A stretch of DNA of 64,000 bases. It comes from Burkholderia stagnalis. GTDB lineage: Bacteria; Pseudomonadota; Gammaproteobacteria; Burkholderiales; Burkholderiaceae. Every line of letters begins with the position of its first letter. Position 1 is the stretch's first letter. This document shows positions 11-18,516 of this stretch, one piece after another. A program made the translations under genes and the position numbers. The DNA lies in the NCBI RefSeq assembly GCF_902830275.1, contig NZ_CADESW010000001.1, positions 310,001-374,000 on the forward strand, written 5' to 3'. The notes under the pieces are model-generated. The model searched no databases, had not been told where the DNA came from, and was given only the letters and a program-made list of their open reading frames with translations.

Positions 11-2224
11 ATGCGCGCCTCGCCTCCAGAATCACCCTCACACATTTCGGATAACCAAACGCTTTCGGCTCTCGCCGATACCGCCCGCGACTGGGCACGC
101 ACGAGCGGCGTCACGTGGCTCTACGTGTTCAAGACGCTGCTCGCCGCACTGCTGGCGCTCGGCGTCGCGATGAAGCTCGAGCTGCCGATGCCGCGCACGG
201 CGATGACGACCGTGTTCGTGCTCATGCAGCCGCAGAGCGGGATGGTGCTCGCGAAGAGCCTGTACCGGATCTGCGGCACCGTGGTCGGCTTGCTGGCGAT
301 GCTGGTGCTGATCGGCCTGTTCGGCCAGACGCCCGAACTCTTCCTCGGCGCGACGGCGCTGTGGATCGGCGTATGCACGGCCGGCGCCGCGCGCAACCGC
401 AACTTCCGCACCTACGGGTTCGTGCTCGCCGGCTACACAGCCGCGCTGATCGGCATTCCGTCGTGGCAGCACCCGGACGCCGCGTTCCTGTCGGCCATGA
501 CGCGCGTGACCGAGGTCACGATCGGCATCCTGTGCTCGGGCGCCGTCAGCGCGCTGGTCTTCCCGCAGCACCTGAGCACGCAGCTCCATCGCGCGAACCG
601 GCGCGGCTTCATGCAGTTCGCCGACGACGTGCGCACGGTGCTCGGCGGGCGCACCGAGCGGGCCTTTCTCGAAGCGCTGAACCTGCGTGTGGTCGACGAA
701 ACCGTTCATTCGGAGGCGGCCCGCAGCGCCGCCGTGTTCGAAACGCCGGACACCCGCCTGAGCAACGGCCGCCTGACCCGGCTCAATGCGGAATGGATGG
801 CGGCGTCGACGCGCCTGCACGCATTGAGCCAGCGGGTCGCGCGGCTGCACGCCGGACAACCCGGCCCGGCCGCGGCGGCCATCGACGGCTGCCTGTCGGA
901 ACTGGCCGCGCGAATCGATGCGGCACGCCAGCGCGCGCCGGACGACGCGCACGTGTTCGCCGAAGCGCTCGTCGCATCGCTCGAAGCCTTCCGGGCGGCG
1001 CTGCCCGGCCGCGCGGACGCAGTGCGAACGCGCGTCGATGCGGCCCGCGCCCCGGCGCTGCAGGAATTCGACACGGCGATCGAACTGCTCGACCGGTTCG
1101 TCGACAGCTACGTCGCGTACGCGCGCACCTGCGTGTCGCTCGCGTCGGCCGCGCACGCGCGCGAACAGTGGCCGGCCCGCTTCGAACCGCGCACCAATCC
1201 GCTCGTCGCGGCCGTCGCGGGCACGCGCGCGATGCTGCTGACGCTCGTGCTCAGCCTGTTCTGGATCGCGACCGCGTGGCCGTCCGGCGCGCTGCTCGTG
1301 CTGAATGGCGGCGCCATCTGCGCGCTCGTCGCATCGTCCGCGCGGCCGTCCCGGACGGCGTTCCAGATGGCGATCGGCACGGCCTGCGCGTCCGCGATCG
1401 GGCTCGTCGTAATGTTCTTCGTGTATCCGGCGATCGACGGCTTCCCGCTGCTCTGCGTCGTGCTCGCGCCGCCGCTCGCGCTCGGCTGCTGGCTGACGAC
1501 GCGCCCGTCGCTGGCCGGCTACGGCGTCGGCTACTGCATCTACTTCTGCTTCCTGACCGGCCCCGACAACGTCGTCGCATACGACCCGACCTCGTTCATC
1601 AACGACGCGATCGCGCTGGTGCTGTCGATGCTGATGGCGGCGCTCGCGTTCGAACTGTTCCTGCCGCCGACGATGCGCGCGCTGCGCCGGCATCTGGTCG
1701 CGGACCTGCGCGAGCAGGTCGCGTTCGCCTGTACCGGCGCGCTTGCGACGCTGCGCGCGCGCTTCGAGAGCCGCACCCGCGATCTCATGTATCAACTGCG
1801 GACGATTTCGCAGGACGATCGCGCGGCGATCGGCGAATCGCTCGAATGGTTTCTCGCGGTGCTCGAAACCGGCTCCGCGGTGATCGACCTGCGCGATGCG
1901 ATGGCACAGGCCGCATCGCAGGCCGGATCGGATATCGCGCCCGTGTGGCTGGCATCCGCCGATCAGGCATGCCGCGCGATCCGGGCGCTGTTCCAGGCGC
2001 CGACGCCGGCCCGCGCCGCCGACGCCACGCGCGCGGCGCAGGCCGCGATCGATGCGCTGCGTCGGCGGATGGCGCAGGAAAGCGGCACACGACAAAGCGC
2101 GCCGCATCTCCAGGCGGCGCTCGCGAGCCTGCATTTCATGCTCAGCGCCATTGCCGCGCCCGATTCGCCGCTGCCCGTGCCGCAGCAGGCCGCGCAAGTC
2201 GTCGCAGGAGACGGAAAGCGTTGA
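11..2224 (+). CDS. FUSC-family inner-membrane efflux protein (AaeB-like)
   Basis: A 737-residue membrane protein of the fusaric acid resistance / aromatic carboxylate efflux (AaeB) type. It has two hydrophobic blocks, roughly residues 36-185 and 400-555, separated by a soluble Ala/Arg-rich segment, and a soluble C-terminal region. This duplicated membrane-soluble plan is the family hallmark. Such pumps usually work with a small DUF1656 protein and a HlyD-type periplasmic adaptor. Neither lies downstream, where actP converges after 37 bp, so any partners would be upstream, outside the window. Only 10 bases precede the ATG, so the start cannot be checked against a ribosome-binding site. The family is clear; the substrate is unknown. 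Confidence 0.85.
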   Translation: MRASPPESPSHISDNQTLSALADTARDWARTSGVTWLYVFKTLLAALLALGVAMKLELPMPRTAMTTVFVLMQPQSGMVLAKSLYRICGTVVGLLAMLVLIGLFGQTPELFLGATALWIGVCTAGAARNRNFRTYGFVLAGYTAALIGIPSWQHPDAAFLSAMTRVTEVTIGILCSGAVSALVFPQHLSTQLHRANRRGFMQFADDVRTVLGGRTERAFLEALNLRVVDETVHSEAARSAAVFETPDTRLSNGRLTRLNAEWMAASTRLHALSQRVARLHAGQPGPAAAAIDGCLSELAARIDAARQRAPDDAHVFAEALVASLEAFRAALPGRADAVRTRVDAARAPALQEFDTAIELLDRFVDSYVAYARTCVSLASAAHAREQWPARFEPRTNPLVAAVAGTRAMLLTLVLSLFWIATAWPSGALLVLNGGAICALVASSARPSRTAFQMAIGTACASAIGLVVMFFVYPAIDGFPLLCVVLAPPLALGCWLTTRPSLAGYGVGYCIYFCFLTGPDNVVAYDPTSFINDAIALVLSMLMAALAFELFLPPTMRALRRHLVADLREQVAFACTGALATLRARFESRTRDLMYQLRTISQDDRAAIGESLEWFLAVLETGSAVIDLRDAMAQAASQAGSDIAPVWLASADQACRAIRALFQAPTPARAADATRAAQAAIDALRRRMAQESGTRQSAPHLQAALASLHFMLSAIAAPDSPLPVPQQAAQVVAGDGKR

Positions 2225-2261: not shown

Positions 2262-3932
2262 TCAATGGCGCGCCGCCTGCTCCGCGCCGAGGCCGGTCTG
2301 CGCGCGCACGAACTGCGCATCGAACGCGTGCCGTTCGTCGTTCGCCGCCCGGCTCCGGTCGCGCGACGACACCACGATGCTCACGAGAAACGCCAGCGGC
2401 ATCGTGAACAGCGCCGGATGATCGTACGGAAAGATCGCGGCCGGATGCCCGAGCACGGCCTTCCACACCGCCGGCGACAGGATCACCAGCCCGACCGACG
2501 ACACGAGCCCGGCGAAGCCGCCCCACACCGCGCCGCGGCTCGTCAGCCCCTTCCAGTACATCGAGAGCACCAGCGGCGGGAAATTCGCCGACGCGGCCAC
2601 GTTGAACGCCAGCGCGACCAGGAACGCGAGGTTCTGCCCTTTGAACACGATGCCCAATGCCACGGCGATCGCGCCGATCGCGAGCGTCGTCCATTTGGTC
2701 ACGCGCACTTCCGCGTCGCCGCTCGCGCGCCCCTTGCACAGCACGTTCGCGTAGATGTCGTGCGACACCGCGGACGCGCCGGCCAGCGCCAGCCCCGACA
2801 CCACGGCGAGGATCGTCGCGAACGTCACCGCCGCGAGGAAGCCGAGGAACAGGTCGCCGCCGGTCGCGCGCGCCAGATGCATCGCGACCATGTTGCCGCC
2901 GCCGAGCAGCGTGCCGCCCGCGCGGCCGCCTTCGAAGAACTGCGGATCGGTGCCGACGATCACGATGCTCGCGAGGCCGATCACGAACATCGCGACGAAC
3001 ATGTAGCCGATGCAGGTGCTCGCGACGAACACGCTCTTCCTCGCCTCGCGTGCGTTCGGCACCGTGAAGAAGCGCATCAGCACGTGCGGGAGCCCGGACA
3101 GGCCGAACACCGTCGCGAGCGACAGCGACACGGCCGACACCGGGTCCGCGAACAGCCGCCCGGGCCCGAGCAGCATGCTGCCGCCGTGGTGAACCGCCAC
3201 CGCCCGCGCCGCGAGCCGTTCGAAGCTGAAGTCGAAATGCGCGAGCGCGAGCACCGTGAGCAGCGTGCCGCCGAACATCAGCAGCACGGCCTTGATGATC
3301 TGCACCCACGTGGTCGCGATCATGCCGCCGAACGTCACGTACACGATCATCAGGAGTCCGACGCCCACCACCGCATAGGCGTAGTCGATCCCGAACAGCA
3401 GCTGCACGAGCTCGCCCGCGCCGACCATCTGCACGATCAGGTAGAAGAACACCACCGTCAGCGAGCTGGTTGCCGCCATCCAGCGCGTGCTGACCGGATC
3501 GAGCCGGTAAGCGATGATGTCGACGAACGTGAACTTGCCGAGATTGCGCAGCCGCTCGGCCATCAGGAACAGCATCACGGGCCAGCCGACGAAGAAGCCC
3601 ACCACATAGAGCAGGCCGTCATAGCCTTTCGAATAGACGAGGCTGACGACACCGAGCAGCGTCGCGGCGGACATGTAGTCGCCCGCCACCGCGAGGCCGT
3701 TCTGGAATCCGCTGATGCCGCCGCCCGCGGTGAAGAAGTCGTTCGCCGTCTTTGTGCGGTTCGCGGCCCACCAGGTGATGCCGAGCGTGATGCACACGAA
3801 CGCCATGAACATCGCGATCGCCGTGAGGTTCAGCGGCTGCCGCCGCGCCCCCTCCACGGCCGGCCCGGCCCATGCGAATCCGCCGGGCGCGAGCGCGATC
3901 AGCGCCGCCGCAAGTCGTGCCGGGCCCGTCAT
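2262..3932 (-). CDS. actP: Cation/acetate symporter ActP (sodium:solute symporter family)
   Basis: A 556-residue permease that takes up acetate and related short-chain carboxylates with a cation. The N-terminus (MTGPARLAAALIALAPGG...) looks like a signal sequence, as in ActP homologues, followed by about 13 membrane segments. The chosen ATG overlaps the stop of the upstream DUF485 gene by 4 bases (ATGA), the usual arrangement for this pair and a sign of translational coupling. A longer reading frame continues upstream through the DUF485 gene but has no coding support. Length and residues such as NDFFTAGGG and the Ser/Gly-rich helices fit ActP well. Confidence 0.93.
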   Translation of the reverse strand: MTGPARLAAALIALAPGGFAWAGPAVEGARRQPLNLTAIAMFMAFVCITLGITWWAANRTKTANDFFTAGGGISGFQNGLAVAGDYMSAATLLGVVSLVYSKGYDGLLYVVGFFVGWPVMLFLMAERLRNLGKFTFVDIIAYRLDPVSTRWMAATSSLTVVFFYLIVQMVGAGELVQLLFGIDYAYAVVGVGLLMIVYVTFGGMIATTWVQIIKAVLLMFGGTLLTVLALAHFDFSFERLAARAVAVHHGGSMLLGPGRLFADPVSAVSLSLATVFGLSGLPHVLMRFFTVPNAREARKSVFVASTCIGYMFVAMFVIGLASIVIVGTDPQFFEGGRAGGTLLGGGNMVAMHLARATGGDLFLGFLAAVTFATILAVVSGLALAGASAVSHDIYANVLCKGRASGDAEVRVTKWTTLAIGAIAVALGIVFKGQNLAFLVALAFNVAASANFPPLVLSMYWKGLTSRGAVWGGFAGLVSSVGLVILSPAVWKAVLGHPAAIFPYDHPALFTMPLAFLVSIVVSSRDRSRAANDERHAFDAQFVRAQTGLGAEQAARH

Positions 3933-4246
3933 TTCGTCACCTCGCCGAGCAGCGCGTCGTTGAGCCGTTCGAACTTCCCGTTCGCGCGCCAGACGTACAG
4001 CCACGTGAACGCCCAGCCGACCACGATCACCGCGATCGCCGCCACCACGCCGACGGTCGTCACGTGCCCTGCCGCGACGGGCGCACGCAGCAGCCCGGGG
4101 CGAAACGCCACGCAGGCAGCCAGCGCGAAATACGCACCGAGCACGCCTGCGATCAACGACCAGGACAGGCGGGCGCGGCGCGCCGCCAGTTCGCGAAACG
4201 TCGCGTGCGCGCGAATGCGCGAGACCGCGCTTGCATTCAACTCCAT
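3929..4246 (-). CDS. DUF485 inner-membrane protein, ActP partner (YjcH-like)
   Basis: A 105-residue protein with two membrane helices (about residues 29-52 and 63-87) joined by a short loop. It ends in a charged tail containing YVWRANGKFERL, a typical DUF485 ending. DUF485 genes sit directly before actP in many proteobacteria (yjcH-actP in E. coli), and here the two overlap by 4 bp. The role is thought to be accessory to the permease but is not settled. A GC-rich dyad at 4457-4472 lies about 210 bp upstream and could regulate the pair. Confidence 0.9.
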   Translation of the reverse strand: MELNASAVSRIRAHATFRELAARRARLSWSLIAGVLGAYFALAACVAFRPGLLRAPVAAGHVTTVGVVAAIAVIVVGWAFTWLYVWRANGKFERLNDALLGEVTK

Positions 4247-4456
4247 GAGTCTCCTCCATTTTCAGTTGACGGATCGACAGCTTCGCCGCCGCTTCGACCG
4301 AGCTTTTCGTTGTTCTAATGGTATGCGCCGGCTGCATTTCGGCAGCGGCATGCATCGGGCTTCGCGAAGCGTGCGGCACCTCGAACCGCGCCACCGGATC
4401 GGCGGCGAGCGGGTATCGGGTGGAACGAGCTTAGGAGCGGGGCGGCGCAAATGCAG

Positions 4457-4472
4457 CCCCTCGCTTGGGGGG
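4457..4472. promoter_or_regulatory. C6-N4-G6-type dyad A, upstream of the acetate permease operon
   Basis: CCCCTC-GCTT-GGGGGG, preceded by GCAG. It matches the layout of four similar dyads at 6093, 10420, 12855 and 12918, all near the LAL regulator gene. It lies in the 344-bp gap between the DUF485-actP operon and the BON gene, about 210 bp upstream of the DUF485 start. It is inferred to be a regulator binding site; the regulator is not proven. Confidence 0.4.
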
Positions 4473-4516
4473 TGTGACGGACCGCCTGACCGGCGGCGTT
4501 GTCGCGTCGTTCACGC

Positions 4517-4554
4517 AAAAAGGCCCGGCCGGCGGACCACCGCCTTGCCGGGCC
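4517..4554 (-). terminator. Rho-independent terminator of the BON-domain gene
   Basis: On the minus strand the arms GGCCCGGC and GCCGGGCC (4547-4554 and 4522-4529) enclose a second GC-rich hairpin and are followed by TTTTT at 4521-4517. It begins 36 bp after the BON gene stop. Confidence 0.75.
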
Positions 4555-4590
4555 GGGCATCGTGCCGCGATGCGCGTCACGCGGGCCGCG

Positions 4591-4983
4591 TCATTGCCCG
4601 CCTTCGAGCCGAAGCCCGAGCTTGCTCGTCACCGACGTCACGCCCTGCACGCCGCGCGCCGCCTCGACCGCGGCGCGGTCCTGCGACTGGTCCGTGATGA
4701 CGCCCGCCAGCGTCACCTCGCCCGTCTTCGCCTTCGCGAACACCGTCACCTGCGCATCGCCGATGCCGGGCGATTTCATGATGGCCAGGCGCACCTTCTT
4801 CGCGAACGCGCGGTTCGCGGCGCGCTCCGCCTTCTTTGCGGCTTTCGGCGACGCCGGCGCCGGCGCGGCTTGCGCCGCCTGCGCGCCCGGCGCCGCGGCA
4901 TCGGGCGCGGCGGATTGCGCGTAACACGCCAGTGACGACGCCATGGCGACACCGGCGACAACGATCATGCTGCGTACCTTCAT
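4591..4983 (-). CDS. Secreted BON-domain protein
   Basis: A 130-residue exported protein: signal peptide MKVRSMIVVAGVAMASSLACYAQ, an Ala/Pro-rich low-complexity linker (about residues 27-55), then a BON domain (about 60-125). The BON domain shows the usual pattern of an ITDQSQDRAAVEAARGV helix and a final strand around VTSKLGLRL. BON domains bind membranes or phospholipids in proteins such as OsmY. The ATG at 4983 is chosen because AGGAGGGGAAG lies just before it; a GTG 15 bases further upstream falls inside that ribosome-binding site. It is a single-gene unit with its own terminator. The exact role is unknown. Confidence 0.85.
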   Translation of the reverse strand: MKVRSMIVVAGVAMASSLACYAQSAAPDAAAPGAQAAQAAPAPASPKAAKKAERAANRAFAKKVRLAIMKSPGIGDAQVTVFAKAKTGEVTLAGVITDQSQDRAAVEAARGVQGVTSVTSKLGLRLEGGQ

Positions 4984-5040
4984 CTTCCCCTCCTCCACGT
5001 GACAAGAACCAACGGAAAACGGCGGATGCGCGCCCGCTTG

Positions 5041-5997
5041 CTACACCTCGCTGCGAGCCTGCATCGCCATCGCCTCCAGCGCCTGTTCGTCCGCGCTCAA
5101 CGCGGGCGGCAGCGTGCTGCGCAGGTGATCGAGAAAGGTTCGTACCTTCGCATCCATGAACTGCCGCGACACATAGATCGCATAGACGTCCAGCAGCTGC
5201 AGCCGGTAGCCCGGCAACACCCGGACGAGCCGCCCGCTTCTCAGCTCGTCGAGCGCCGAATAGATCGCCAGCGAGCCGATGCCGCGCCCCGCGCGCAACG
5301 CCACCATCATCGCCTCGGGCGCGTTCACCTGGAACGGGGCCATCAGCACCGAATGCGATACGACGCTGCCGTCCTCGCCATGCAGCAGCCATTCGCCGTT
5401 CGGCTCGGCCGGCGTGTCGAGACGCAGGCACGCGTGCGCGTCGAGATCGGCCGGCGTCGACGGCGTGCCGTGCGTGTCGAGGTAGTCCCGCGATGCAACG
5501 AGGATGCTGTGGCTCTTGCCGTACGTGTGCGCGATGTATGCGGAATCCGGCAGGCTCGACGCGGTCAGGATCGAGATGTCGTAGCCTTCCTCGACCAGGT
5601 TCGGCATGCGCTGCGAATAGGTGATCTCGACCGACACGTCGGCGAACCTTTCCTGGTACGCGACGATCGACGCGGTCACGTGGCTCTGGCCGAGCCCCGG
5701 CATCGTGTGGATGCGCAGCCGGCCGTACGGCCGCACGAGCGCGTTGCGCGCCTCGGCGTTCGCCTGGTCGACGTCGCTCAGGATCGACGACACGCGCTCG
5801 AAGTAGCGCCGCCCGCTGTCGGTCAGCGCGATCTTGCGCGTCGTCCGGTGCAGCAGCCGCGTTTGCGCGTACTCCTCGAGGCTGGCGATCGCCCGCGACA
5901 CCTGCGCGATCGCCACGTCCGTCTGCTTCGCGACCGCGGTGAAGCTGCCCGCCTGCGCAACGCGGACGAAGGTCCGCATGTTTTCAAGCATGTCCAT
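5041..5997 (-). CDS. LysR-family transcriptional regulator
   Basis: A 318-residue regulator with an N-terminal winged helix-turn-helix (about residues 1-62, with SFTAVAKQTDVAIAQVSRAI as the recognition region) and a periplasmic-binding-protein-like effector domain. The HRTTRKIALTDSGRRYFERV stretch after the helix-turn-helix is typical of the CrgA/DsdC-like branch common in Burkholderia. The neighbouring quinone oxidoreductase at 6176-7207 lies upstream on the same strand, so this is not a divergent LysR-target pair and the target is not obvious. A C6-N4-G6 dyad lies 96 bp upstream of the start. The inducer is unknown. Confidence 0.92.
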   Translation of the reverse strand: MDMLENMRTFVRVAQAGSFTAVAKQTDVAIAQVSRAIASLEEYAQTRLLHRTTRKIALTDSGRRYFERVSSILSDVDQANAEARNALVRPYGRLRIHTMPGLGQSHVTASIVAYQERFADVSVEITYSQRMPNLVEEGYDISILTASSLPDSAYIAHTYGKSHSILVASRDYLDTHGTPSTPADLDAHACLRLDTPAEPNGEWLLHGEDGSVVSHSVLMAPFQVNAPEAMMVALRAGRGIGSLAIYSALDELRSGRLVRVLPGYRLQLLDVYAIYVSRQFMDAKVRTFLDHLRSTLPPALSADEQALEAMAMQARSEV

Positions 5998-6092
5998 TCC
6001 GATCCATCGCCTTTCATTGCGCCCGAATGACGTCCCGGGTGCGTGGCCCGTGCGCTGAACCGGATTGTCGGCGATTCATGCGCGCGCAATCA

Positions 6093-6108
6093 CCCCCCGC
6101 ACGGGGGG
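6093..6108. promoter_or_regulatory. C6-N4-G6 dyad B, upstream of the LysR gene
   Basis: CCCCCC-GCAC-GGGGGG is a near-perfect dyad; the inner bases extend the symmetry as CCCCCCG-CA-CGGGGGG. It lies between the LysR start (5997) and the stop of the quinone oxidoreductase gene (6176). It is one of five dyads of this kind restricted to 4.4-12.95 kb. Confidence 0.45.
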
Positions 6109-6175
6109 CTGTCGCGCTGCCCGGCAGTGTGAAACGCTCGTCAGGATTGCTTGCGGCCGGCGGCCATTGTTCAGA

Positions 6176-7207
6176 TCAGTCGCGCTGCCCGGCCGCCGTC
6201 TTCAGCACGATCTTGCCGATGTGCAGGCCGGAATCCATCAGCTCGTGCGCGCCGCGCGCATCGCGCAGGTCGAACTGGCGATGGATCAGCGGCTTCACCG
6301 TGCCCTGCTTGATCAGCGGCCACACCGCGGCTTCGAGCTCGTGGATGATCTGCGCCTTCTCCGCGTAGGTGCGCGAACGCAGCGTGGAGCCGATGTGCGT
6401 CAGGCGCTTGGTCAGCATCGGGAACAGGTCGAGTTCCTTCGCGGGCCCGTTGATCACGCCGATCTGCACGATCCGCCCGTTCATCGCGGCCGCCGCGTAA
6501 TTGCGGGCGACGTAGTCGCCGGCGATGATGTCGACGATCACGTCGACGCCCTTGCCGTCGGTGAAGCGCTTGACGGCCTCGACGAAATCCTCGTTCCGGT
6601 AGTCGATCGCGAGATCCGCGCCGAGCCGCAGGCTCGCGTCGCGCTGCGCGTCGGAGCCGACCGTCGTGATGATCGTCGACGCGCCGAACGCCTTCGCGAG
6701 CATCGTCGCCGTCGTCCCGATGCCGGACGCGCCGCCGTGGATCAGCACCGATTCGCCGCGCGCCAGCTTGCCGCGCTGGAACAGGTTCAGCCACACCGTC
6801 ATGAAGGTTTCCGGCATCGCGGCCGCCTCGACCATGTCGAGGCCTTCGGGAATCGCCAGCGTGTTGCTCTCGTTCGCAACCGCGTACTCCGCGTAGCCGC
6901 CGCCCGGAATCAGCGCGCAGACCTTGTCGCCGATCGCGAAGCGCGTGACGCCCGCGCCGAGCGCGACGACGTCGCCGGCGATCTCGAGGCCGGGAAGATC
7001 CGACGCCCCCGGCGGCGGATCGTACAGGCCCTTGCGCTGGAACACGTCCGGGCCGTTCACGCCGGCCGCGTGAATGCGGATCAGGACTTCGCCGGCCGCC
7101 GGCGACGGCACCGGGCGCGTCGTCGGAACCAGGACTTCGGGGCCGCCGGGGCGCACGATTTCGACGGCGCTCATCTCGGTCGGGAGTGCTTTCATTTGAT
7201 CATTCAC
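6176..7207 (-). CDS. NAD(P)H-quinone oxidoreductase, zinc-free MDR family (PIG3-like)
   Basis: A 343-residue medium-chain dehydrogenase/reductase without the structural zinc cysteines. It has a GroES-like N-terminal domain (about 15-140) and a Rossmann domain with GGASGIGTTATMLAKAFGA (about 158-176) binding NADPH. It resembles the PIG3/zeta-crystallin group that reduces quinones. The frame starts at a GTG with AGAGGA at good spacing; an in-frame ATG four codons later (MKALPTEM) is the alternative. A perfect 16-bp palindrome at 7336-7351 lies about 130 bp upstream. The natural substrate is unknown. Confidence 0.88.
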   Translation of the reverse strand: MNDQMKALPTEMSAVEIVRPGGPEVLVPTTRPVPSPAAGEVLIRIHAAGVNGPDVFQRKGLYDPPPGASDLPGLEIAGDVVALGAGVTRFAIGDKVCALIPGGGYAEYAVANESNTLAIPEGLDMVEAAAMPETFMTVWLNLFQRGKLARGESVLIHGGASGIGTTATMLAKAFGASTIITTVGSDAQRDASLRLGADLAIDYRNEDFVEAVKRFTDGKGVDVIVDIIAGDYVARNYAAAAMNGRIVQIGVINGPAKELDLFPMLTKRLTHIGSTLRSRTYAEKAQIIHELEAAVWPLIKQGTVKPLIHRQFDLRDARGAHELMDSGLHIGKIVLKTAAGQRD

Positions 7208-7335
7208 GATTCGATCCTCTGCAGTACGCCGATGCGCGCTCGAATCCGGGGACCTCCCCGTTTCGCCGCATCGCGATGAAGAGGCAGTCTATCGATCGAC
7301 CCGCGCGATCGCACGTCGTGAATTGCCGATCGACG

Positions 7336-7351
7336 GATGCAAATTTGCATC
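7336..7351. promoter_or_regulatory. Perfect 16-bp palindrome upstream of the quinone oxidoreductase
   Basis: GATGCAAATTTGCATC reads identically on both strands. It sits in the 208-bp gap between the quinone oxidoreductase start and the stop of the MalT-like gene, in locally AT-richer DNA. It is a plausible operator for a dimeric repressor; no dedicated repressor gene is adjacent. Confidence 0.4.
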
Positions 7352-7415
7352 ACGCCGGGCGCAAGGCGATTCGGCCTGCCGATTCGTCGAAGGATTGAAG
7401 CCGGTGCCGGGGCGC

Positions 7416-10205
7416 TCACGCGTCGCCGTCGTGCATGCGCGAACGCGGCAGGTCGAGCGCGAGCCCGCTGCGCACCGCCTGGATGCGCGACGTGACGTTG
7501 AGCTTTTCGAAGATGTTCTTCAGGTGCCACTTGATCGTCTCCGGCGCGACGCGCAGCGCGCGGGCGATCTCCTTGTTCGACAGCCCGCGCGCGACATAGT
7601 CGAGGATCTCGACTTCGCGCGCACTCAGGTTGCCGGCCGTCTGCGCCGTCTCGGACCGCGCGGCCTGCGCACCGGCCGACTTGCGGTGCGCATCGAACGC
7701 CTGCGCCAGCTCGCGCACGTACCACGCGCTGACCTGCGGAAAACGCTCCGCCTGCGCCTGCATGCGCGCGATCAGCCGCTCGAGCACCGCGCCTTCGTCG
7801 ATGAACGTGCGCACGAGCCCGTTGCGCTGGCCGTATTCGAGCGCCTGCGCGAGCACGTCGAGCGCGGCGTCCGCGTGCCCCGCCTGCTCGAGCGCCGCCG
7901 CGCGCAGCGTCGCGGCCTGCGCGGCGAGCCAGTCGAACCCGCGCGCCGCGACCTGTTCGTGCACGGCCGCCATCAGGCTCGCCGCGTCGTGTTCGCGCTG
8001 GTCGCCGAGCAGCAGCCGCGCCTGCGCCGATTGCGCGATCTGCCACGTCTCGACGTAGCTCGACACCGCATCGGGCGGCGCGGCCGGCACCAGCGACGCA
8101 AGCGCATGCCCGAGCCGGTTCGCGCGCGTCAGGTTGCCTTCCTTCAGGTACAGGCGAATGCCGGTCGCCATGCACGCCACGCGCAGGCGCAGCCATTGCC
8201 GGCCGCAGGCGACATGGTCGGCCTCGTCGAGAATCTCGTGCGCGCGCACGGCCTGCCCGGCGTCGAACGCGAGCAGCGCGGCGGTCTGCATGAAGCGCTG
8301 CAGCGGCCCCAGCGAGCACGCCTGCATCGCGATCTGGAAGCGCTCGCGCTGCGCTTCCCGCACCTTCGCGAGGTCGTTCCATTCGTAGTAGATCGACGAC
8401 AGGTAGCCGGCCGACAGCGCCGTCGCCGCGGACAGCCGCCCCGCCGCGCGCTCGGCCGACTGCAGTGCCGCCTCGAAGGTCTTCGACGCGTCGTGCAGGC
8501 GCCCCGCGACGAATTCGGCCAAGCCCGACATGTTGCGCCGGTACACGTTCGCATAGAGCGGCACGTCGCCGTGCGCGGCCCGCTCCGCACGCGCGCGCAG
8601 CGCCAGCACGTCGTCGATGCGCCCCGCATAGCTCAGCCCGAAGATCAGCGTGGTCTGGCCGATCTGCTCGATCCACGAGCCGGGCTTCGGGCCGGCCGCC
8701 ATCACGCGCTCGCCGAGATGCAGCGATTCGGCGCTGCGATCCGACAGGGCCGCGATCAGCGAGCGCACCGCGAGCAGCTCGGTCGCGGTGACGTCGTCCG
8801 TGCCGAGCCGCCCCGCGTCGATATCCGCCTCGATCGCTTCGAGCGCGTGGCGCGCATCGACCGTCTGCATCGCGAGCGCCAGCGCCCACGCATGGGCGAC
8901 GCGCAGGCGCAGCCGCCCCTTCGATGCATGGTCGGGCAGCCGCGACACCCAGTCGAGCACCGTGCGCACGTCGCTCGCCGCGATGAACTTCATCGCGCAC
9001 GCCTCGACCCACGCCGCGGCCGCGTCGAAATCGCCGGCCGCGAGCGCGTGCCTCACCGCGTCCGGCCACTGGTGGCGGCCCGCATGCCATTCGCTCGCGC
9101 GCCGATGCAGCGCGGCGATCGTCCCGGGTTGCCGCAGCGCCAGTTCCTCGCGCAGATACTGCGAAAACAGCGCGTGATAGCGATACCATTCGCGCCCGCC
9201 ATCGATCGACTTGATGAACAGGTTGTGCACGCTCAGCCATTCGAGGCAGTCCGCGCCGTCGCGCGCGCCGGTCAGCGCGTCGCACAGCGGCGGCGTCATC
9301 CGGTCCAGCACCGCGGTGCAGAGCAGGAAATGCCGGATCGCGTCCGGCACGTGCGTCATCACGTTCTCGTTCAGGTAGGTGGCGATGCCCGCGCGCGCGT
9401 TGCCGACCTGCTCCGCGACGCGCGCCGCGTCGTTTTCGTCGCTTTCGTCGCGCAGCGCGAGCGCGGCGAGCTGCAGGCCCGACACCCAGCCTTCGGTCGC
9501 CGCGCGCAGCCGTTCTAGGCTGGCCGCGTCGAGCGCCTTCCCGGCCACCCGGTCGAAGAACGCGCGGGTTTCCTGTTCGTCGAAGCGCAGGTCGTCCGCG
9601 TCCACGCGCACGAGCTGGTCGCGCGATTCGAAATGGCTGAGCGGCAGCGCCGGCGTCGCGCGGCACGACAGCACGACGTGCAGGTTCGACGGCGCGTAGC
9701 GCAGCAACCCGAACACCGCGTCGTGTATCACCGGCGACGCGAGGCGGTCGAAATCGTCGAGCATCACGAACAGCTCGACGCCGGCCGCATCGAGCTCGTT
9801 GAGCAATTCGTCGAACACGACCTTCAGCGGAATCAGCGCGCGATCGCGCAGCAGGCGCTGCGCGCGGCTGCCGATGCCGCCCGTCGCGACGACGATCGAC
9901 TCGATCAGGTATGACGAGAAGATCGACGGGTTGTCGTCGTCCGGGTCGAGGCTGACCCACGCGACCTTCACGCCCGTCGACAGCAGCACGTTGCGCCACT
10001 CGGCGAGCAGCGTCGTCTTCCCGTAGCCGGCCGGCGCGCTGACGACCGTCAGCCGGCGCTCCAGGCCGCGCCTCAGCCGCCCGATCGGAATCGATCGCGG
10101 CACGAGCTCGCGCGCCAGCGCCGGCACCAGCTTGGTGCGCACCAGCACGTCGATCGCGTCGGCCTCGACGGACAGCGCCGCCTGCCTGCTTTTCCTGGAC
10201 GTCAT
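7416..10205 (-). CDS. MalT-like (LAL) ATP-dependent LuxR-family transcriptional regulator
   Basis: A 929-residue STAND-type activator. Walker A is APAGYGKTT at residues 57-65 and Walker B is LFVMLDDF at about 145-152. A long TPR-like middle region follows, and the C-terminal LuxR helix-turn-helix spans about 859-920 (NLSAREVEILDYVARGLSNK). This is the plan of MalT and AlkS: an inducer and ATP trigger assembly and DNA binding. The ATG at 10205 is preferred because GGGAGAA precedes it; the open frame extends 62 codons upstream without support. It lies near an AlkK-like acyl-CoA ligase, recalling the alkane/fatty-acid AlkS-AlkK pairing. GC-rich dyads cluster around this gene and may be its sites. 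Confidence 0.9.
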   Translation of the reverse strand: MTSRKSRQAALSVEADAIDVLVRTKLVPALARELVPRSIPIGRLRRGLERRLTVVSAPAGYGKTTLLAEWRNVLLSTGVKVAWVSLDPDDDNPSIFSSYLIESIVVATGGIGSRAQRLLRDRALIPLKVVFDELLNELDAAGVELFVMLDDFDRLASPVIHDAVFGLLRYAPSNLHVVLSCRATPALPLSHFESRDQLVRVDADDLRFDEQETRAFFDRVAGKALDAASLERLRAATEGWVSGLQLAALALRDESDENDAARVAEQVGNARAGIATYLNENVMTHVPDAIRHFLLCTAVLDRMTPPLCDALTGARDGADCLEWLSVHNLFIKSIDGGREWYRYHALFSQYLREELALRQPGTIAALHRRASEWHAGRHQWPDAVRHALAAGDFDAAAAWVEACAMKFIAASDVRTVLDWVSRLPDHASKGRLRLRVAHAWALALAMQTVDARHALEAIEADIDAGRLGTDDVTATELLAVRSLIAALSDRSAESLHLGERVMAAGPKPGSWIEQIGQTTLIFGLSYAGRIDDVLALRARAERAAHGDVPLYANVYRRNMSGLAEFVAGRLHDASKTFEAALQSAERAAGRLSAATALSAGYLSSIYYEWNDLAKVREAQRERFQIAMQACSLGPLQRFMQTAALLAFDAGQAVRAHEILDEADHVACGRQWLRLRVACMATGIRLYLKEGNLTRANRLGHALASLVPAAPPDAVSSYVETWQIAQSAQARLLLGDQREHDAASLMAAVHEQVAARGFDWLAAQAATLRAAALEQAGHADAALDVLAQALEYGQRNGLVRTFIDEGAVLERLIARMQAQAERFPQVSAWYVRELAQAFDAHRKSAGAQAARSETAQTAGNLSAREVEILDYVARGLSNKEIARALRVAPETIKWHLKNIFEKLNVTSRIQAVRSGLALDLPRSRMHDGDA

Positions 10206-10310
10206 TGTCGCGATGTTCTCCCGATGGCAACCGCACTCGGGCGCCCGGCCGGCGCGGGCGGCCGCGATGTTCCGCGTAACAGCATAAACATACGATGCCG
10301 GCCGCCGATA

Positions 10311-10327
10311 GTCAGGGTTCTCCTGAC
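10311..10327. promoter_or_regulatory. Inverted repeat between the LAL regulator and the NTF2-like gene
   Basis: GTCAGG-gttct-CCTGAC, six-base arms with a 5-base spacer, about 106 bp upstream of the LAL regulator start, following an AT-rich patch (taacagcataaacatacga) that could hold a promoter. It is a possible operator, with weak evidence beyond the symmetry. The rest of the 332-bp gap holds dyad C and a short CGGTCGCGC direct repeat. Confidence 0.3.
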
Positions 10328-10419
10328 CGGGCCATGCGGCATCGTCCGGCCGGTCGCGCCGGTCGCGCCGGTCGAATGCAAAGGCTCGCATTCTTGTCGA
10401 TCGGCCGCCGGCCGATCAG

Positions 10420-10435
10420 CCCCCCATTCGGGGGG
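10420..10435. promoter_or_regulatory. C6-N4-G6 dyad C between the LAL regulator and the NTF2-like gene
   Basis: CCCCCC-ATTC-GGGGGG, preceded by CAG. It lies 103 bp upstream of the NTF2-like start and 215 bp upstream of the LAL regulator start, so it could serve either divergent gene. It is one of two copies with complete six-base arms. Confidence 0.45.
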
Positions 10436-10537
10436 TTACGCCGATGCGGGCCGCCGCTTCATGCTGGGCGCTCGACGATGCGGCCGGCATGCGCCCGCTC
10501 GCGTCCACCGTTGCGCGCCCGTGCGCAGGGAGCCGCC

Positions 10538-10957
10538 ATGAATTGCAGCGAAATCGCCGAAGCGTTCTTCGATCGCTATCGGCGCCACGACATCGACGGC
10601 ATGCTCGCGCTGTGCGCCGAGCATGCGACGATCGACTACGTGCCGCTCGATGCGGCCGGGCCGGCCGCCGTGCAGGGCAAGGCGATCTGGGCATCGCTGA
10701 TCGACGCCTTTCCGGATCTGTCGAACGAAATCACCGCGCTCCACCCCGACAGCGCCGGCCGTCACGTGACGGTCGAGGTGACGATCGGCGGCACGCAGGC
10801 GCGCGATTTCCTCGGCATCGCGAATCGCGGCCATGCGTTCTCGCTGAAGCACGCGTTCATCCTTGAACTCGACGCCGCGGGACGCATCGCGCGAATCCGC
10901 GCGTACTGGGACAACGCGCGGCTGTTCGACGATCTCGGCGGGACGACGCGCGGCTGA
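10538..10957 (+). CDS. NTF2/SnoaL-like protein
   Basis: A 139-residue single-domain protein with the NTF2-like cone fold pattern: an N-terminal helix (IAEAFFDRYRRHDIDGMLAL), then strands such as GRHVTVEVTIGGTQ and a C-terminal RIARIRAYWDNARLF strand. SnoaL-like proteins include polyketide cyclases, epoxide hydrolases and steroid isomerases, so the reaction cannot be read from sequence. The ATG at 10538 follows AGGGAG. It is divergent from the LAL regulator and converges on the acyl-CoA ligase with 13 bp between stops. Confidence 0.8.
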   Translation: MNCSEIAEAFFDRYRRHDIDGMLALCAEHATIDYVPLDAAGPAAVQGKAIWASLIDAFPDLSNEITALHPDSAGRHVTVEVTIGGTQARDFLGIANRGHAFSLKHAFILELDAAGRIARIRAYWDNARLFDDLGGTTRG

Positions 10958-10970
10958 CCGCGCGTGCGCG

Positions 10971-12638
10971 TCACGCGTCCTGGTAGCGCTCGCGCAGCGC
11001 CCGCTTGTTGATCTTGCCGACGCTGGTGCGCTCGATCGACGCGACGATCAGCAGCTTCTCCGGCACCGCGTAGCGCGAGATCAGCCCGCGATCGGCGACG
11101 CCCTTCACGTGCGCCTGCAGCTCGGCCGGCCCGACGCGCCCGACATGGGTGTCGGCCAGCACGACGAGCGCCAGCGGCCGCTCGCCCCACTTCGCATCCT
11201 TGACGCCGATCACCGCGGCTTCGCGCACCGCCGGATGCCGCGACAGGATGTCCTCGAGCGCCAGCGACGACACCCACTCGCCGCCGGTCTTGATCACGTC
11301 CTTGATGCGGTCGGTGATCTGCAGGCAGCCGTCCTTGTCGATCACGCCGATGTCGTTCGTATGCAGATAGCCGCCTTCCCACAGCGCCGCCGACGCGGCC
11401 TCGTCGCCCAGATAGCCGTCGGTCGCCCACGGCATGCGCACCACCACCTCGCCGCTCGAGCGGCCGTCGTGCGGCACGTCGCGCAGGTTCGCATCGACGA
11501 TGCGCAGGTCGACGAGCGGCAGCGGCAGCCCCGTGCGCGTGCGGCGCGCGACGTCGTCGCCGCACGGCGCGTCTGCGCCGCCAGCGGGCGGGTCGACCTG
11601 CGCGATCGTCATCAGCGGGCAGGTTTCCGACATCCCGTAGCCGGTATACACGTCGATGCCGCGCGCGAGCGCCGCACGCGCCAGCCCGTCCGACAGCGGC
11701 GAGCCGCCGACGAGCACCTTCCACGACGACAGGTCGACCGACGCCGACGCCGGGCTGTCCAGGATCATCCCGAGCAGCGTCGGCACGCAATGCGAGAACG
11801 TGACCGACTCGCGCGCGATCAGCGCGAGCAAACCGTCCGGCGCATAGCGGCCCGGATACACCTGCTTGAGCCCGAGCGCGGTCGCGATGTACGGCATGCC
11901 CCATGCATGCACGTGGAACATCGGCGTGATCGGCATGTACACGTCGTCGCGGTGCACGCGCCCGCGCTCGCGCGCGCTCGACAGCGCCGCCATTCCCGCG
12001 AGCGTGTGCAGCACGAGCTGGCGATGGGTGAACGCGACGCCCTTCGGCAGCCCGGTCGTGCCGGTCGTGTAGAACGTGGTCGCGCGCGTGTTCTCGTCGA
12101 AATCGGGGAACACGAAATCGGGCGAGCCGCCGGCCACCAGGTTTTCGTACTCGTCGACGAAGCCGTCGGGCAGCGCCGTCGGCTCGCCGTCGCCGATCAG
12201 CACGAAGCGGCGCACCGTCTCGAGCCGCGCGCGCAGGCCGTCGAGCAACGGCAGGAAGTCGCGATGGACGAGCACGATGCGCGCGCCCGAGTGGTTCAGC
12301 GTATGGAGCAGCTGGTCGGGCGACAGCCGGACGTTCGCGGTCATCAGCACCGCGCCCATCATCGGCACCGCGAAGTAGCACTCGAGGTAGCGGTGACTGT
12401 CCCAGTCCATCACGGCCACCGTGTCGCCGGGCGCGACGCCGGCCGCCGACAGCCCGCTGGCAAGCTGCCCGACACGGTGCCGGAACGTCCAGTAGTCGTA
12501 CCGGACCTGGTCGCTGTAGACGATCGCCTGCTCGGGCCGCGTCGCGAGCGGCGTATGCAGCAGCTGCTTGATCAGCAGCGGGTACGCGCAGGCGGACGAT
12601 GCCGGGGCCGCCGGCGCAGGCGTGGACGACTCATTCAT
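10971..12638 (-). CDS. AMP-dependent fatty acyl-CoA synthetase, AlkK-like
   Basis: A 555-residue acyl-adenylate/CoA ligase that activates a carboxylic acid with ATP and CoA. The ATP-binding loop is YTTGTTGLPKG, the adenylate motif is YTGYGMSETCP, and the C-terminal hinge and catalytic lysine lie in DRIKDVIKTGGEW and SVGKINKRAL. The HVHAWGMPY region and the overall length resemble medium-chain AlkK-type ligases. The ATG at 12638 is chosen because GGAGG lies six bases before it; the upstream ATG at 12650 overlaps that site. It sits close to the LAL regulator, as AlkK does with AlkS. Chain-length preference is inferred. Confidence 0.88.
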   Translation of the reverse strand: MNESSTPAPAAPASSACAYPLLIKQLLHTPLATRPEQAIVYSDQVRYDYWTFRHRVGQLASGLSAAGVAPGDTVAVMDWDSHRYLECYFAVPMMGAVLMTANVRLSPDQLLHTLNHSGARIVLVHRDFLPLLDGLRARLETVRRFVLIGDGEPTALPDGFVDEYENLVAGGSPDFVFPDFDENTRATTFYTTGTTGLPKGVAFTHRQLVLHTLAGMAALSSARERGRVHRDDVYMPITPMFHVHAWGMPYIATALGLKQVYPGRYAPDGLLALIARESVTFSHCVPTLLGMILDSPASASVDLSSWKVLVGGSPLSDGLARAALARGIDVYTGYGMSETCPLMTIAQVDPPAGGADAPCGDDVARRTRTGLPLPLVDLRIVDANLRDVPHDGRSSGEVVVRMPWATDGYLGDEAASAALWEGGYLHTNDIGVIDKDGCLQITDRIKDVIKTGGEWVSSLALEDILSRHPAVREAAVIGVKDAKWGERPLALVVLADTHVGRVGPAELQAHVKGVADRGLISRYAVPEKLLIVASIERTSVGKINKRALRERYQDA

Positions 12639-12854
12639 GAATGCCTCCATAAGCGGACGACGATTGCCGATGCGGCCGCGCCCGCCGCCGACACCGGTGA
12701 CCGGGGTCGTGCTGCGGGGCGCGTCGGACCGCGAAACCGTGGCGTCTCCTCTTCATTCCTATGCGGGAATGCATGCGAAACGGCCGGCCGGAAGCGGTGC
12801 GCCGCCCGAGCCGGAATGTCGACCACGATACCCAGCGGCCACCGGCCGGACACC

Positions 12855-12870
12855 CCCCCTGTCAGGGGGT
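12855..12870. promoter_or_regulatory. C6-N4-G6-type dyad D between the acyl-CoA ligase and hchA
   Basis: CCCCCT-GTCA-GGGGGT, with further symmetry as CCCCCTG-T-CAGGGGG. It lies 217 bp upstream of the acyl-CoA ligase start and 173 bp upstream of hchA, within a 404-bp divergent gap. Confidence 0.4.
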
Positions 12871-12917
12871 GAGCCGGCGCCGCGCGCGCCATGCAGAAGG
12901 ATCGCGTTCGTGTCAGC

Positions 12918-12933
12918 CCACCTGTTCGGGGGG
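12918..12933. promoter_or_regulatory. Degenerate C6-N4-G6-type dyad E upstream of hchA
   Basis: CCACCT-GTTC-GGGGGG, preceded by CAGC. The right arm is complete and the left arm keeps four of six cytosines. It lies 110 bp upstream of the hchA start and 47 bp beyond dyad D. Confidence 0.3.
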
Positions 12934-13042
12934 GACGCACGCGCCGGACGCAACGGTAAGATTCGCCCGAAGGCGTCCCGCGGCGAGCGCGTGGGCGCCC
13001 ATTGCGGCCCGCCGTAAGTTCCAACCCGAGAAAGGAGTAGCC

Positions 13043-13924
13043 ATGACTTCCGAACGCCAGGACCTGGACAAAGCGCCCACCCCCGATCCCGCCGAGAACA
13101 ATGCGTTCTTCCCTTCGCCCTACTCCCTGTCGATGTACACGTCGTCGAAAACGGACTTCGACGGCACGGATTACCCGAATCCGTACCGGGGCGGCAAGTG
13201 GAAAGTCCTGATGATTGCGAGCGACGAGCGCTACATCCTGATGACCAACGGCAAGATGTTCTCGACCGGCAATCACCCGGTCGAGATGCTGCTGCCGATG
13301 TATCACATGGACAAGGCCGGCTTCGAGATCGACATCGCGACGCTGTCCGGCAACCCCGCGAAGCTCGAACTGTGGGCGATGCCCGGCGAGGACGAGGCCG
13401 TCCAGGGCACCTACCGGAAATACCTGCCGAAGCTGAAGGCGCCGCTGAAGCTGTCCGACGTGCTGGAAAGCAGCCTCGGCGCGGATTCGCCGTATATCGC
13501 CGTGTTCGTGCCGGGCGGCCACGGCGTGCTGGCCGGCATCCCGCACAGCCGGGAAGTCAAGCGCACGCTGCAGTGGGCGCTGGACCACGACCGGCACATC
13601 GTCACGCTGTGCCACGGCCCGTCGTGCCTGCTGGCGTCGGCCGTCGACGAGGATCCGGACCGCTATCCGTTCAAGGGCTACGAAATCTGCGTGTTCCCCG
13701 ATTCGCTGGACAAGGGGGCGAACCTCGACATCGGCTACATGCCGGGCCCGCTGCCCTGGCTCGTCGGCGAAAGCCTCGAGAAGCTCGGCGTCACGGTGCT
13801 GAACCGGGACATCACCGGCCGCTGCCATCAGGACCGCAAGCTGATCACCGGCGACAGCCCGCTCGCGTCCAACAATATCGGCAAGCTCGCCGCGGCGGCG
13901 TTGCTCGAGGCCGTCGCGCGGTAA
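13043..13924 (+). CDS. hchA: Glyoxalase III / molecular chaperone HchA (Hsp31)
   Basis: A 293-residue DJ-1/PfpI-superfamily protein that converts methylglyoxal to lactate without glutathione and also acts as a holding chaperone and deglycase. The nucleophile elbow is TLCHGPSC with Cys190 and His191; Glu81 (HPVEML) and Asp220 are the likely remaining catalytic residues. The N-terminal extension [20 protein letters not shown] is specific to Hsp31. AAAGGAG precedes the ATG. It is divergent from the acyl-CoA ligase and downstream of two GC-rich dyads. Confidence 0.94.
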
Positions 13925-16983: not shown

Positions 16984-18516
16984 TCACCGGCCCGGGCCGT
17001 GCGCCCCCGCCGCCGCATCCACCGCGTCGACCGACCGGTTCAGCCACGGGCCGATATCCATCTCGTCGTAGCGCACGAGCCGGCTGTTGCGGGCCCGCCG
17101 GTAGCCCCACCAGATCGCGACGAACAGCGGAATCCACACGTAGATCGACAGCACCTCCATCCAGTCGATCTTCTCCGCGAAAAACGCCTGATAGTCCTGC
17201 CCGAGCGAGATCGCCACGCAGATCGCGATCGCGAACAGCGGCCCGAACGGAAACCACTTCGCGCGATACGGCAGCTGGTCGAGCCGGTAGCCCTGCTTCA
17301 GCAGACCCTTGCGGAAGCGGTAGTGACTGACCGCGATGCCAAGCCACGCGATGAAGCCCGTGATGCCGACCGTGTTCAGCAGCCACAGATAGATCCGCTG
17401 GTTGTTCGCCAGCGACGTCAGGAAGCACAGCCCGCCGACCGCCATCGTCGCGTACAGCGCATTGCGCGGCACGCCGCCCGGCGACAGCGTCGCGAACATC
17501 GCCGGCGCGCGGCCCTCGGTCGCGAGCGTATACAGCATCCGCGTGGCCGCATACGTGCCGGAATTGCCCGCGGACAGCACCGCGGTCAGGATCACGACGT
17601 TCATCGCGCCGGCCGCGATCGGAAACCCCGCGTGGCTGAAGACCAGTGTGAACGGGCTCACGCCGATGTCGGTCACGTCGCTCTTGAGCAGGTTCGGGTC
17701 GGTGTACGGAATCAGCAGGCCGATCACGAAGATCGCCAGCACGTAGAACAGCATGATCCGCCAGAAGATCTGCTTCACCGCGCGCGGGATCGTCGTGCGC
17801 GGGTTCTCCGATTCGCCGGCCGTGATCCCCACCAGCTCGGTGCCGAGGAACGAAAACCCGGCGATCAGCGCGACGCTCATCATCGCGTGCACGCCGCCGA
17901 CGAACGGCGCATCGCCGATCGTGAAGTTCCGCCAGCCTGCCGCGTGGCCGGCGCCGATCGCACCTGCCGCGATCAGCAGCCCCGCGGCGATGAACGCGAT
18001 CACCGTGACGACCTTGATCAGCGAGAACCAGTACTCCGATTCCCCGAAGCCGCGCACCGACAGCGTGTTCAGCAGGAAGATCAGCACCAGGAACGCGGCG
18101 CCCCACCAGATGCCCGGCACGCCGGGAAACCAGTAGCGCATCACGATCTGCCCGGCGACCAGCTCGATCGCGATCGTCACCGCCCAGCTGTACCAGTAGG
18201 TCCAGCCGAGCGCGACGCCGAAGCCCGCGTCGACGTATTTCTCGCCGTAGACCGCGAACGAGCCCGACACCGGCATCAGCGCGGCCATCTCGCCGAGCCC
18301 CGTCACGACGAAATAGACCATCAGCCCGATCACCACGTACGCGGCGATCGCGCCGCCCGGCCCGGCCTGCGCGACCGATGCGCCGGAGGCGACGAACAGC
18401 CCCGTGCCGATCGAGCCGCCGATCGCGATCATCGCGATATGGCGGCTTTGCAGGCGGCGCTTCAGCGTCGTCTGCGGCGATGCGATTCCTGCGTCAGTCG
18501 CTTGCATGGCGTCCAT
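16984..18516 (-). CDS. lysP: Lysine-specific permease-like APC transporter
   Basis: A 510-residue amino acid permease with 12 predicted helices. Several stretches are nearly identical to E. coli LysP as I remember it: HIAMIAIGGSIGTGLFVASG, LMPVSGSFAVYGEKYV, LGWTYWYSWAVTIAIELVA and FSFLGTELVGITAGES. The start MDAMQATD follows AGGGTGA at good spacing; the 18-codon upstream extension is unsupported. An Lrp-type regulator lies directly upstream on the same strand, and a dimethylargininase lies before that, so the substrate is probably lysine or another basic amino acid. Confidence 0.87.
   Translation of the reverse strand: MDAMQATDAGIASPQTTLKRRLQSRHIAMIAIGGSIGTGLFVASGASVAQAGPGGAIAAYVVIGLMVYFVVTGLGEMAALMPVSGSFAVYGEKYVDAGFGVALGWTYWYSWAVTIAIELVAGQIVMRYWFPGVPGIWWGAAFLVLIFLLNTLSVRGFGESEYWFSLIKVVTVIAFIAAGLLIAAGAIGAGHAAGWRNFTIGDAPFVGGVHAMMSVALIAGFSFLGTELVGITAGESENPRTTIPRAVKQIFWRIMLFYVLAIFVIGLLIPYTDPNLLKSDVTDIGVSPFTLVFSHAGFPIAAGAMNVVILTAVLSAGNSGTYAATRMLYTLATEGRAPAMFATLSPGGVPRNALYATMAVGGLCFLTSLANNQRIYLWLLNTVGITGFIAWLGIAVSHYRFRKGLLKQGYRLDQLPYRAKWFPFGPLFAIAICVAISLGQDYQAFFAEKIDWMEVLSIYVWIPLFVAIWWGYRRARNSRLVRYDEMDIGPWLNRSVDAVDAAAGAHGPGR

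Follow-up and report, generated by a model that had tools for sequence, protein, structure and literature searches.

We analysed a 64,000-nucleotide stretch of Burkholderia stagnalis DNA (G000:C1:310001-374000 of an 8.03-Mb genome; hereafter referred to as the window), in which a reading of the sequence alone had pointed out five GC-rich dyads of the form C6-N4-G6 around the gene of a MalT-like regulator of the LAL type (hereafter referred to as LAL). These dyads are genuine and well beyond chance expectation, and they are very probably activator sites bound by LAL, whose gene lies among them. The sites, their conservation, their co-occurrence with the LAL gene and a fixed spacing to a −10-like hexamer, which is a new result, were all observed by computation. 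The positions of the dyads and of the regulator gene in the window are as follows.

4457 to 4472, minus strand: dyad 1, upstream of DUF485-actP; minus-strand reading CCCCCC AAGC GAGGGG, one mismatch
6093 to 6108, minus strand: dyad 2, perfect arms, upstream of LysR-BON
7416 to 10205, minus strand: LAL (MalT-like) regulator, with an ATP-binding N-terminal part, MalT-type TPR and a C-terminal GerE/LuxR helix-turn-helix; the proposed binder
10420 to 10435, no strand: dyad 3, perfect arms, in the divergent promoter common to LAL and a SnoaL-like gene
12854 to 12869, minus strand: dyad 4, one mismatch, upstream of the acyl-CoA ligase gene
12918 to 12933, plus strand: dyad 5, two mismatches, upstream of hchA

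All five dyads were found where they had been reported, with best registers of 4457, 6093, 10420, 12854 (given originally as 12855) and 12917/12918. All are intergenic, as had been claimed, and the complete arms ascribed to two of them belong to those at 6093 and 10420. The CA or CAG seen in front of most dyads belongs to a longer palindrome, CAGCCCCCC-N4-GGGGGGCTG, which is complete at some of the relatives' sites and exact over its full 22 bp in at least five genomes. At up to two mismatches, the window contains 13 matches in overlapping registers, corresponding to 6 distinct places, where 3.68 were expected; none of 100 shuffles reached 13. One of these places (49985, two mismatches) lies apart, so that the statement that no further dyad exists in the window is valid only at up to one mismatch.

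In the whole genome, C6-N4-G6 with at most one mismatch occurs at 14 distinct places (matches collapsed by hand), 6 of which, two of them outside the window, fall within the 16 kb around the LAL gene (C1:306595-322869; Poisson, 7e-13). Matches of this quality are not equally common elsewhere; they are concentrated around the LAL gene. Just to the left of the window are two further one-mismatch sites (C1:306595 and C1:307674, or L016:10595 and 11674), one between divergent genes for an acetoacetate decarboxylase and an AEC transporter and the other between the AEC gene and that of a CurA-type reductase. Four of the seven sites of this genome lie between divergently transcribed genes. Allowing two mismatches gave 186 matches genome-wide and 145 for the reversed control, a looseness at which the pattern does not discriminate; because loose patterns run near the control level, only strict forms were used in the counts below.

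LAL is predicted to have 929 residues and the make-up of the LAL/MalT-like proteins, with an N-terminal STAND part, a length of about 900 residues, and TPR and GerE domains (PF17874, 1.3e-26; PF00196, 4.9e-20). It contains the P-loop GYGKTT, and residues 34-392 match the MalT chain 8bob_C; the Pfam NTPase models match it below their cut-offs only. It does not classify as MalT sensu stricto, scoring 373 bits under an NCBIfam equivalog cut-off of 537. A LAL of Burkholderia stagnalis matches it at 99.5% identity. Its GerE domain is 91-92% identical to those of the Cupriavidus/Ralstonia LALs, proteins that are about 50% identical overall, and 62-82% identical to those of more distant Burkholderiales LALs. 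LAL, named from the outset as the likely binder, is upheld as the best candidate.

We then asked whether the dyads accompany LAL in relatives. A LAL-based scan retained 80 of 161 loci, and the 18 with a LAL of at least about 50% identity (L047-L064) were followed, the rest being used for comparison. Every examined relative with a LAL orthologue above this level has adjoining dyads. Dyads with at most one mismatch were present in all 12 Burkholderia/Paraburkholderia loci (perfect in 11 of the 12), and in each of the 6 Cupriavidus/Ralstonia loci there are dyads with one mismatch, GGGGAG halves being the usual form. When the window's genes were mapped onto these loci, the ligase gene was preceded by a dyad in all three genus groups; hchA and SnoaL/LAL or LysR were so preceded in Burkholderia and Paraburkholderia, in differing gene orders. 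A separate dyad precedes DUF485-actP in the window, in L047 and L049 and in the G008/G001 stretches; the Cupriavidus/Ralstonia loci have this unit downstream of the ligase gene. Between LAL and SnoaL, nine Burkholderia show no variation in either arm of the dyad.

The co-occurrence was also evident at the level of whole genomes. A LAL of at least 74% identity occurs in 9 of 37 Burkholderia genomes, and in each of the nine, perfect dyads lie no farther than 10 kb from it, accounting for 21 of the 29 perfect sites in these genomes. The remaining 28 genomes have 17 perfect sites in 15 genomes, with no centre that matches those beside LAL; 13 of the 17 are centred on CGAA or CGGA. Among 299 Burkholderiaceae genomes, spread evenly over the family, 15 have a LAL of at least 50% identity, and all 15 carry the strict form CAGC6-N4-G4RG no more than 10 kb from LAL; of the other 284, 5 carry it (Fisher, 2e-21). 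This form was absent from the five genomes whose only LAL is 39-45% identical. Both outcomes that would have spoken against a LAL regulon, a pattern equally common in random intergenic DNA and dyads lost where a LAL of about 50% identity or more is kept, were looked for and neither was found, and the regulon proposed from the sequence is supported. We also observed that G001 has two LAL orthologues (C1:2450692 and C2:2506071; 74% and 77% identity), each with its own dyads.

The dyads turned out to stand at a fixed distance from a −10-like hexamer (A at position 2 and T at position 6), a regularity first spotted by eye. Across 52 sites with at most one mismatch, or 104 orientations, examined from 10 to 83 nt from the dyad centre, the distances of 31 nt and 32 nt each have 31 hexamer starts; all other distances have 7 or fewer (median, 2). 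The peak is clear in Burkholderia (20 at 31 nt and 25 at 32 nt, of 64) and in Cupriavidus/Ralstonia (6 of 18 at 31 nt, the next distance having 3). Since orthologous promoters are not independent, the cleanest test of the spacing is the B. stagnalis genome itself, where 7 of the 9 gene-facing promoters fit it (binomial P, 2e-12, with the rate taken from other distances). As the spacing was first noticed on these same promoters, independent support comes from the other genera. All 6 Cupriavidus/Ralstonia loci show TACGCT at 31 nt in the ligase promoter. Across from this promoter lies a second dyad with 2-3 mismatches, whose own hexamer stands at 31 nt in 5 of these loci and on plasmid L189; in the sixth locus (L062), the second dyad, at 17053, is outside the scanned range. 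The fitting B. stagnalis promoters are that of the acetoacetate decarboxylase gene (TATGGT) and the following six in the window.

4428 to 4433, minus strand: TAAGCT, 31 nt from the centre of dyad 1, DUF485-actP
6064 to 6069, minus strand: GACAAT, 31 nt from the centre of dyad 2, LysR
10390 to 10395, minus strand: AAGAAT, 32 nt from the centre of dyad 3, LAL
10460 to 10465, plus strand: CATGCT, 32 nt from the centre of dyad 3, SnoaL-like gene
12825 to 12830, minus strand: TATCGT, 31 nt from the centre of dyad 4, acyl-CoA ligase
12957 to 12962, plus strand: TAAGAT, 31 nt from the centre of dyad 5, hchA

If the hexamer occupies −12 to −7 (start sites being assumed), the dyad centre falls at about −43.5, over the −35 region. 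A fixed site that overlaps −35 upstream of a −10 element, as at class II activator promoters, is what we observed, and the layout reads as that of activator-dependent class II promoters. The same overlap would suit a LAL that covers the −35 region and so works chiefly as a repressor, a reading that we consider very unlikely. MalT of Escherichia coli and MalT of Actinoplanes, the relatives for which data exist, are activators according to PMC7567727, and a simple scan found no consensus sigma-70 promoter (−35/−10 pair) between 4200 and 13300, where shuffles would yield just 0.6.

Co-occurrence alone cannot name the binding protein, because the cluster, the regulator and the sites are inherited together: hchA (E ≤ 1e-60) is present in 9 of 9 Burkholderia genomes with LAL and in 0 of 28 others, tracking LAL exactly. 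The cluster seems to have been gained or lost as a single piece, and a comparison of hchA promoters with and without LAL is impossible for the same reason. The neighbouring LysR regulator could in principle bind the dyads instead, given that its gene belongs to the Burkholderia and Paraburkholderia clusters and is itself preceded by a dyad. We regard this as highly improbable. LysR sites are usually of the T-N11-A type, dyads also adjoin LALs of other subfamilies, and tblastn with the window's LysR (1e-10) found no LysR in Cupriavidus L059 and L062, whose open reading frames are partly annotated and which keep both LAL and dyads.

These other subfamilies were represented by 26 Burkholderiales LAL loci, mostly of 39-45% identity (L083 and L101 lower), with a nearly identical recognition helix. 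At up to two mismatches, and with overlapping registers counted, composite sites of dyad plus hexamer number 17 at 31 nt and 13 at 32 nt, as compared with 2.5 ± 2.3 (maximum, 9) at other distances, and a composite site lies near LAL in 13 of the 26 loci. The genes that follow include those for an acyl-CoA ligase, an APH-family kinase, periplasmic binding proteins, an MFS transporter, an acyl-CoA dehydrogenase and OmpR-type response regulators; some sites have no clear following gene. B. stagnalis itself has on C4 a LAL paralogue of 31% identity, with a dyad (G000:C4:88948; L182:4948) and TAGTCT at 31 nt just past its 3′ end and before a porin gene. Its counterparts in G001, G003 and G015 have matching adjoining sites.

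A second promoter type bears on the identity of the binder. It has the C6-N4-G6 core, the flank CATACC and a hexamer at 31 or 32 nt (G000:C20:99128, or L181:7128; L187:6808 and 12104), and it adjoins a non-LAL GerE-domain regulator together with agmatinase, cupin and FAD-oxidoreductase genes. The CGAA- or CGGA-centred dyads are of this type in the two places read (L181 and L187), and such centres, on which the assignment rests without regard to flanks, account for 13 of the 17 perfect sites in genomes that lack LAL. A different regulator of the GerE type that prefers the same core might accordingly read the dyads, alone or with LAL. That is, in our estimate, most improbable, because the flanks differ (GGGGGGCATACC in the C20 type versus GGGGGGCTG) and the form with CAG flanks goes with LAL. 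The notion that the C6-N4-G6 repeats, which could form hairpins, are RNA elements such as transcription terminators is scarcely credible and was rejected, as four of the seven sites of this genome lie between divergent genes, a simple scan called no window dyad terminator-like, and the spacing to −10 would be left unexplained.

LAL thus remains the preferred binder, and the genes behind the dyads indicate what it may control. The genes annotated around LAL in the window are listed here.

2262 to 3938, minus strand: ActP-type cation/acetate symporter (start approximate)
3929 to 4246, minus strand: DUF485 protein
4591 to 4983, minus strand: BON-domain protein, downstream of LysR
5041 to 5997, minus strand: LysR-type regulator
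6176 to 7207, minus strand: PIG3-type NAD(P)H quinone oxidoreductase
10538 to 10957, plus strand: SnoaL/NTF2-like protein
10971 to 12650, minus strand: AMP-dependent fatty acyl-CoA ligase
13043 to 13924, plus strand: HchA (glyoxalase III/Hsp31 family)

The targets point to carboxylic-acid uptake and CoA activation, accompanied by carbonyl enzymes. The sequence-only reading had linked acetate uptake, acyl-CoA activation and methylglyoxal handling. This linkage is supported and is probably broader, since acetoacetate decarboxylase/AEC, LysR-BON and LAL itself, and an SDR-kinase unit in Cupriavidus, also bear dyads; its methylglyoxal part derives solely from the HchA family name. CurA is a weaker case. 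In a control with 30 of 38 matched CurA homologues, a dyad lies within 450 bp in 2 of 4 within LAL clusters and in 0 of 26 elsewhere, a weak comparison because most of the 26 resemble a core paralogue (66-76% identity). The gluconate-2-dehydrogenase-subunit-3/GMC oxidoreductase gene pair of G008 and G001 perhaps extends the regulon; it follows a two-mismatch dyad with TACTGT at 31 nt (L183:2397 and L185:3415). A FUSC-family efflux gene (window 11-2224), between the CurA/PfpI and actP units, has no dyad of its own at up to one mismatch.

In Cupriavidus, the ligase-DUF485-ActP unit lies opposite an APH-family kinase gene (L059-L062 and L064), and on plasmid L189 it lies opposite an SDR-kinase pair; no such kinase is among the called genes of the Ralstonia locus L063. 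To the right of the BON gene in Burkholderia (L048, L050-L054) is an operon for a histidine phosphatase, an APH-family kinase, SDRs and an acyl-CoA dehydrogenase (Pfam names from L053; the set is complete in some of these loci). We dropped this operon from the regulon, because none of 6 scanned intervals has a convincing dyad and its kinase is present in all 6 LAL-less genomes tried (G002, G004, G016, G020, G024 and G036).

Several results weigh against reading the dyads as LAL-bound activator sites. The 22-bp pattern at up to three mismatches occurs in 34 of 37 genomes, in most of which its frequency is close to that of the control; related genomes are not independent, and the whole cluster is passed on together. 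In Paraburkholderia, the spacing peak is weak (of 22, 5 fall at 31 nt and 6 at 32 nt, yet 5 also at 67 nt), and the lack of consensus promoters is weak evidence because of the low number expected from shuffles. At the level of individual genes, the AEC and CurA2 promoters miss the −10 criterion, PIG3 has no upstream dyad in the window, and the cluster dyad of G008 and G001 lies 488 bp upstream of CurA with a hexamer that points away from it. The enrichment at the 26 other loci fades at up to three mismatches (23 at 31 nt, with a background of 11.3 and a maximum of 22), and no enrichment of composite sites was seen at 36 LAL loci, mostly alphaproteobacterial, whose helix is similar. Finally, the non-LAL GerE regulator beside the same core and spacing with other flanks means that the binder cannot be identified from the core alone.

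Among the top matches in open-licence PMC papers, we recognised no description of the dyad motif or of the regulon. An analogy with AlkS-AlkK, in which a LAL regulator is paired with an acyl-CoA ligase, had been drawn in the sequence-only reading. It holds for this pairing; the nearest operator that we found is a different one, as described below, and no alkane hydroxylase gene is among the annotated neighbours, which are a part of all neighbours and in which alkane genes were not specifically searched for.

The nearest documented operator appears to be the MalT palindrome of Actinoplanes sp. SE50/110, TCATCC-5nt-GGATGA, whose 3′ end lies 34.4 ± 1.0 nt from the start site (PMC7567727). Our system matches it in architecture and geometry: a MalT-like regulator inside a large coregulated region, a palindrome over −35 that ends at about the same place (here 23 or 24 nt upstream of the −10 hexamer), and a motif retained in relatives despite reshuffled gene order. 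The operator sequence (C6-N4-G6), the gene content and the host phylum differ. The E. coli MalT box, quoted there as GGGGA(T/G)GAGG and described as a hexanucleotide-core repeat, resembles our sites in its G-rich half-sites, in particular the GGGGAG halves of Cupriavidus/Ralstonia, and the regulators share the LAL architecture; unlike that system, LAL falls below the MalT cut-off, our sites are not such a repeat, and no maltose genes are among the annotated neighbours.

In gene content, the Cupriavidus cluster of plasmid L189 and the mapped genes of other Cupriavidus loci resemble the lva levulinate clusters of Pseudomonas citronellolis and P. putida, which combine an ActP symporter, DUF485, a CoA ligase, an APH-family kinase and an SDR under the sigma-54 type regulator LvaR (PMC6692424). 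The resemblance is one of gene content only, and here LAL, rather than a regulator of the LvaR type, is the proposed regulator. The Burkholderia histidine phosphatase/kinase/SDR operon to the right of BON also resembles the lva genes; unlike in the lva clusters, this operon stands beside the cluster without a convincing dyad, and its kinase occurs without LAL.

We infer binding by LAL, activation and the nature of the inducer as follows. LAL would oligomerise in the presence of ATP and an inducer, which is probably a carboxylic or oxo acid of short to medium chain length or the CoA ester of such an acid; from gene content, our best guess is an oxo- or hydroxy-acid. The paired C-terminal GerE domains would bind CAGCCCCCC-N4-GGGGGGCTG, and the site at about −43.5 would replace the −35 element, so that sigma-70 RNA polymerase is recruited by class II activation. 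LAL would thereby induce uptake (DUF485-ActP and perhaps AEC), CoA activation (acyl-CoA ligase) and carbonyl/enone handling (HchA, the acetoacetate decarboxylase family and perhaps CurA), as well as LysR-BON and its own gene.

Tentatively, a general rule may hold for a large Burkholderiales LAL branch, in which the GerE helix APETxKWHLKNIFEKL would read C-run/G-run palindromes that lie 31-32 nt upstream of a −10 hexamer; for the branch analysed here, the regulon might combine an organic-acid catabolic module, possibly for levulinate-like oxo-acids, with reactive-carbonyl defence, LAL replacing the sigma-54 regulator LvaR. LAL regulators are common, and to our knowledge few have known operators; here, the operator, the promoter geometry, the target genes and the likely regulator were obtained together from sequence. 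In Cupriavidus and its relatives, the regulon would supply a set of inducible promoters with which to sense organic acids. Should the geometry prove to be a family rule, the regulons of uncharacterised LALs would be predictable from sequence, and many that are now unannotated could be read.

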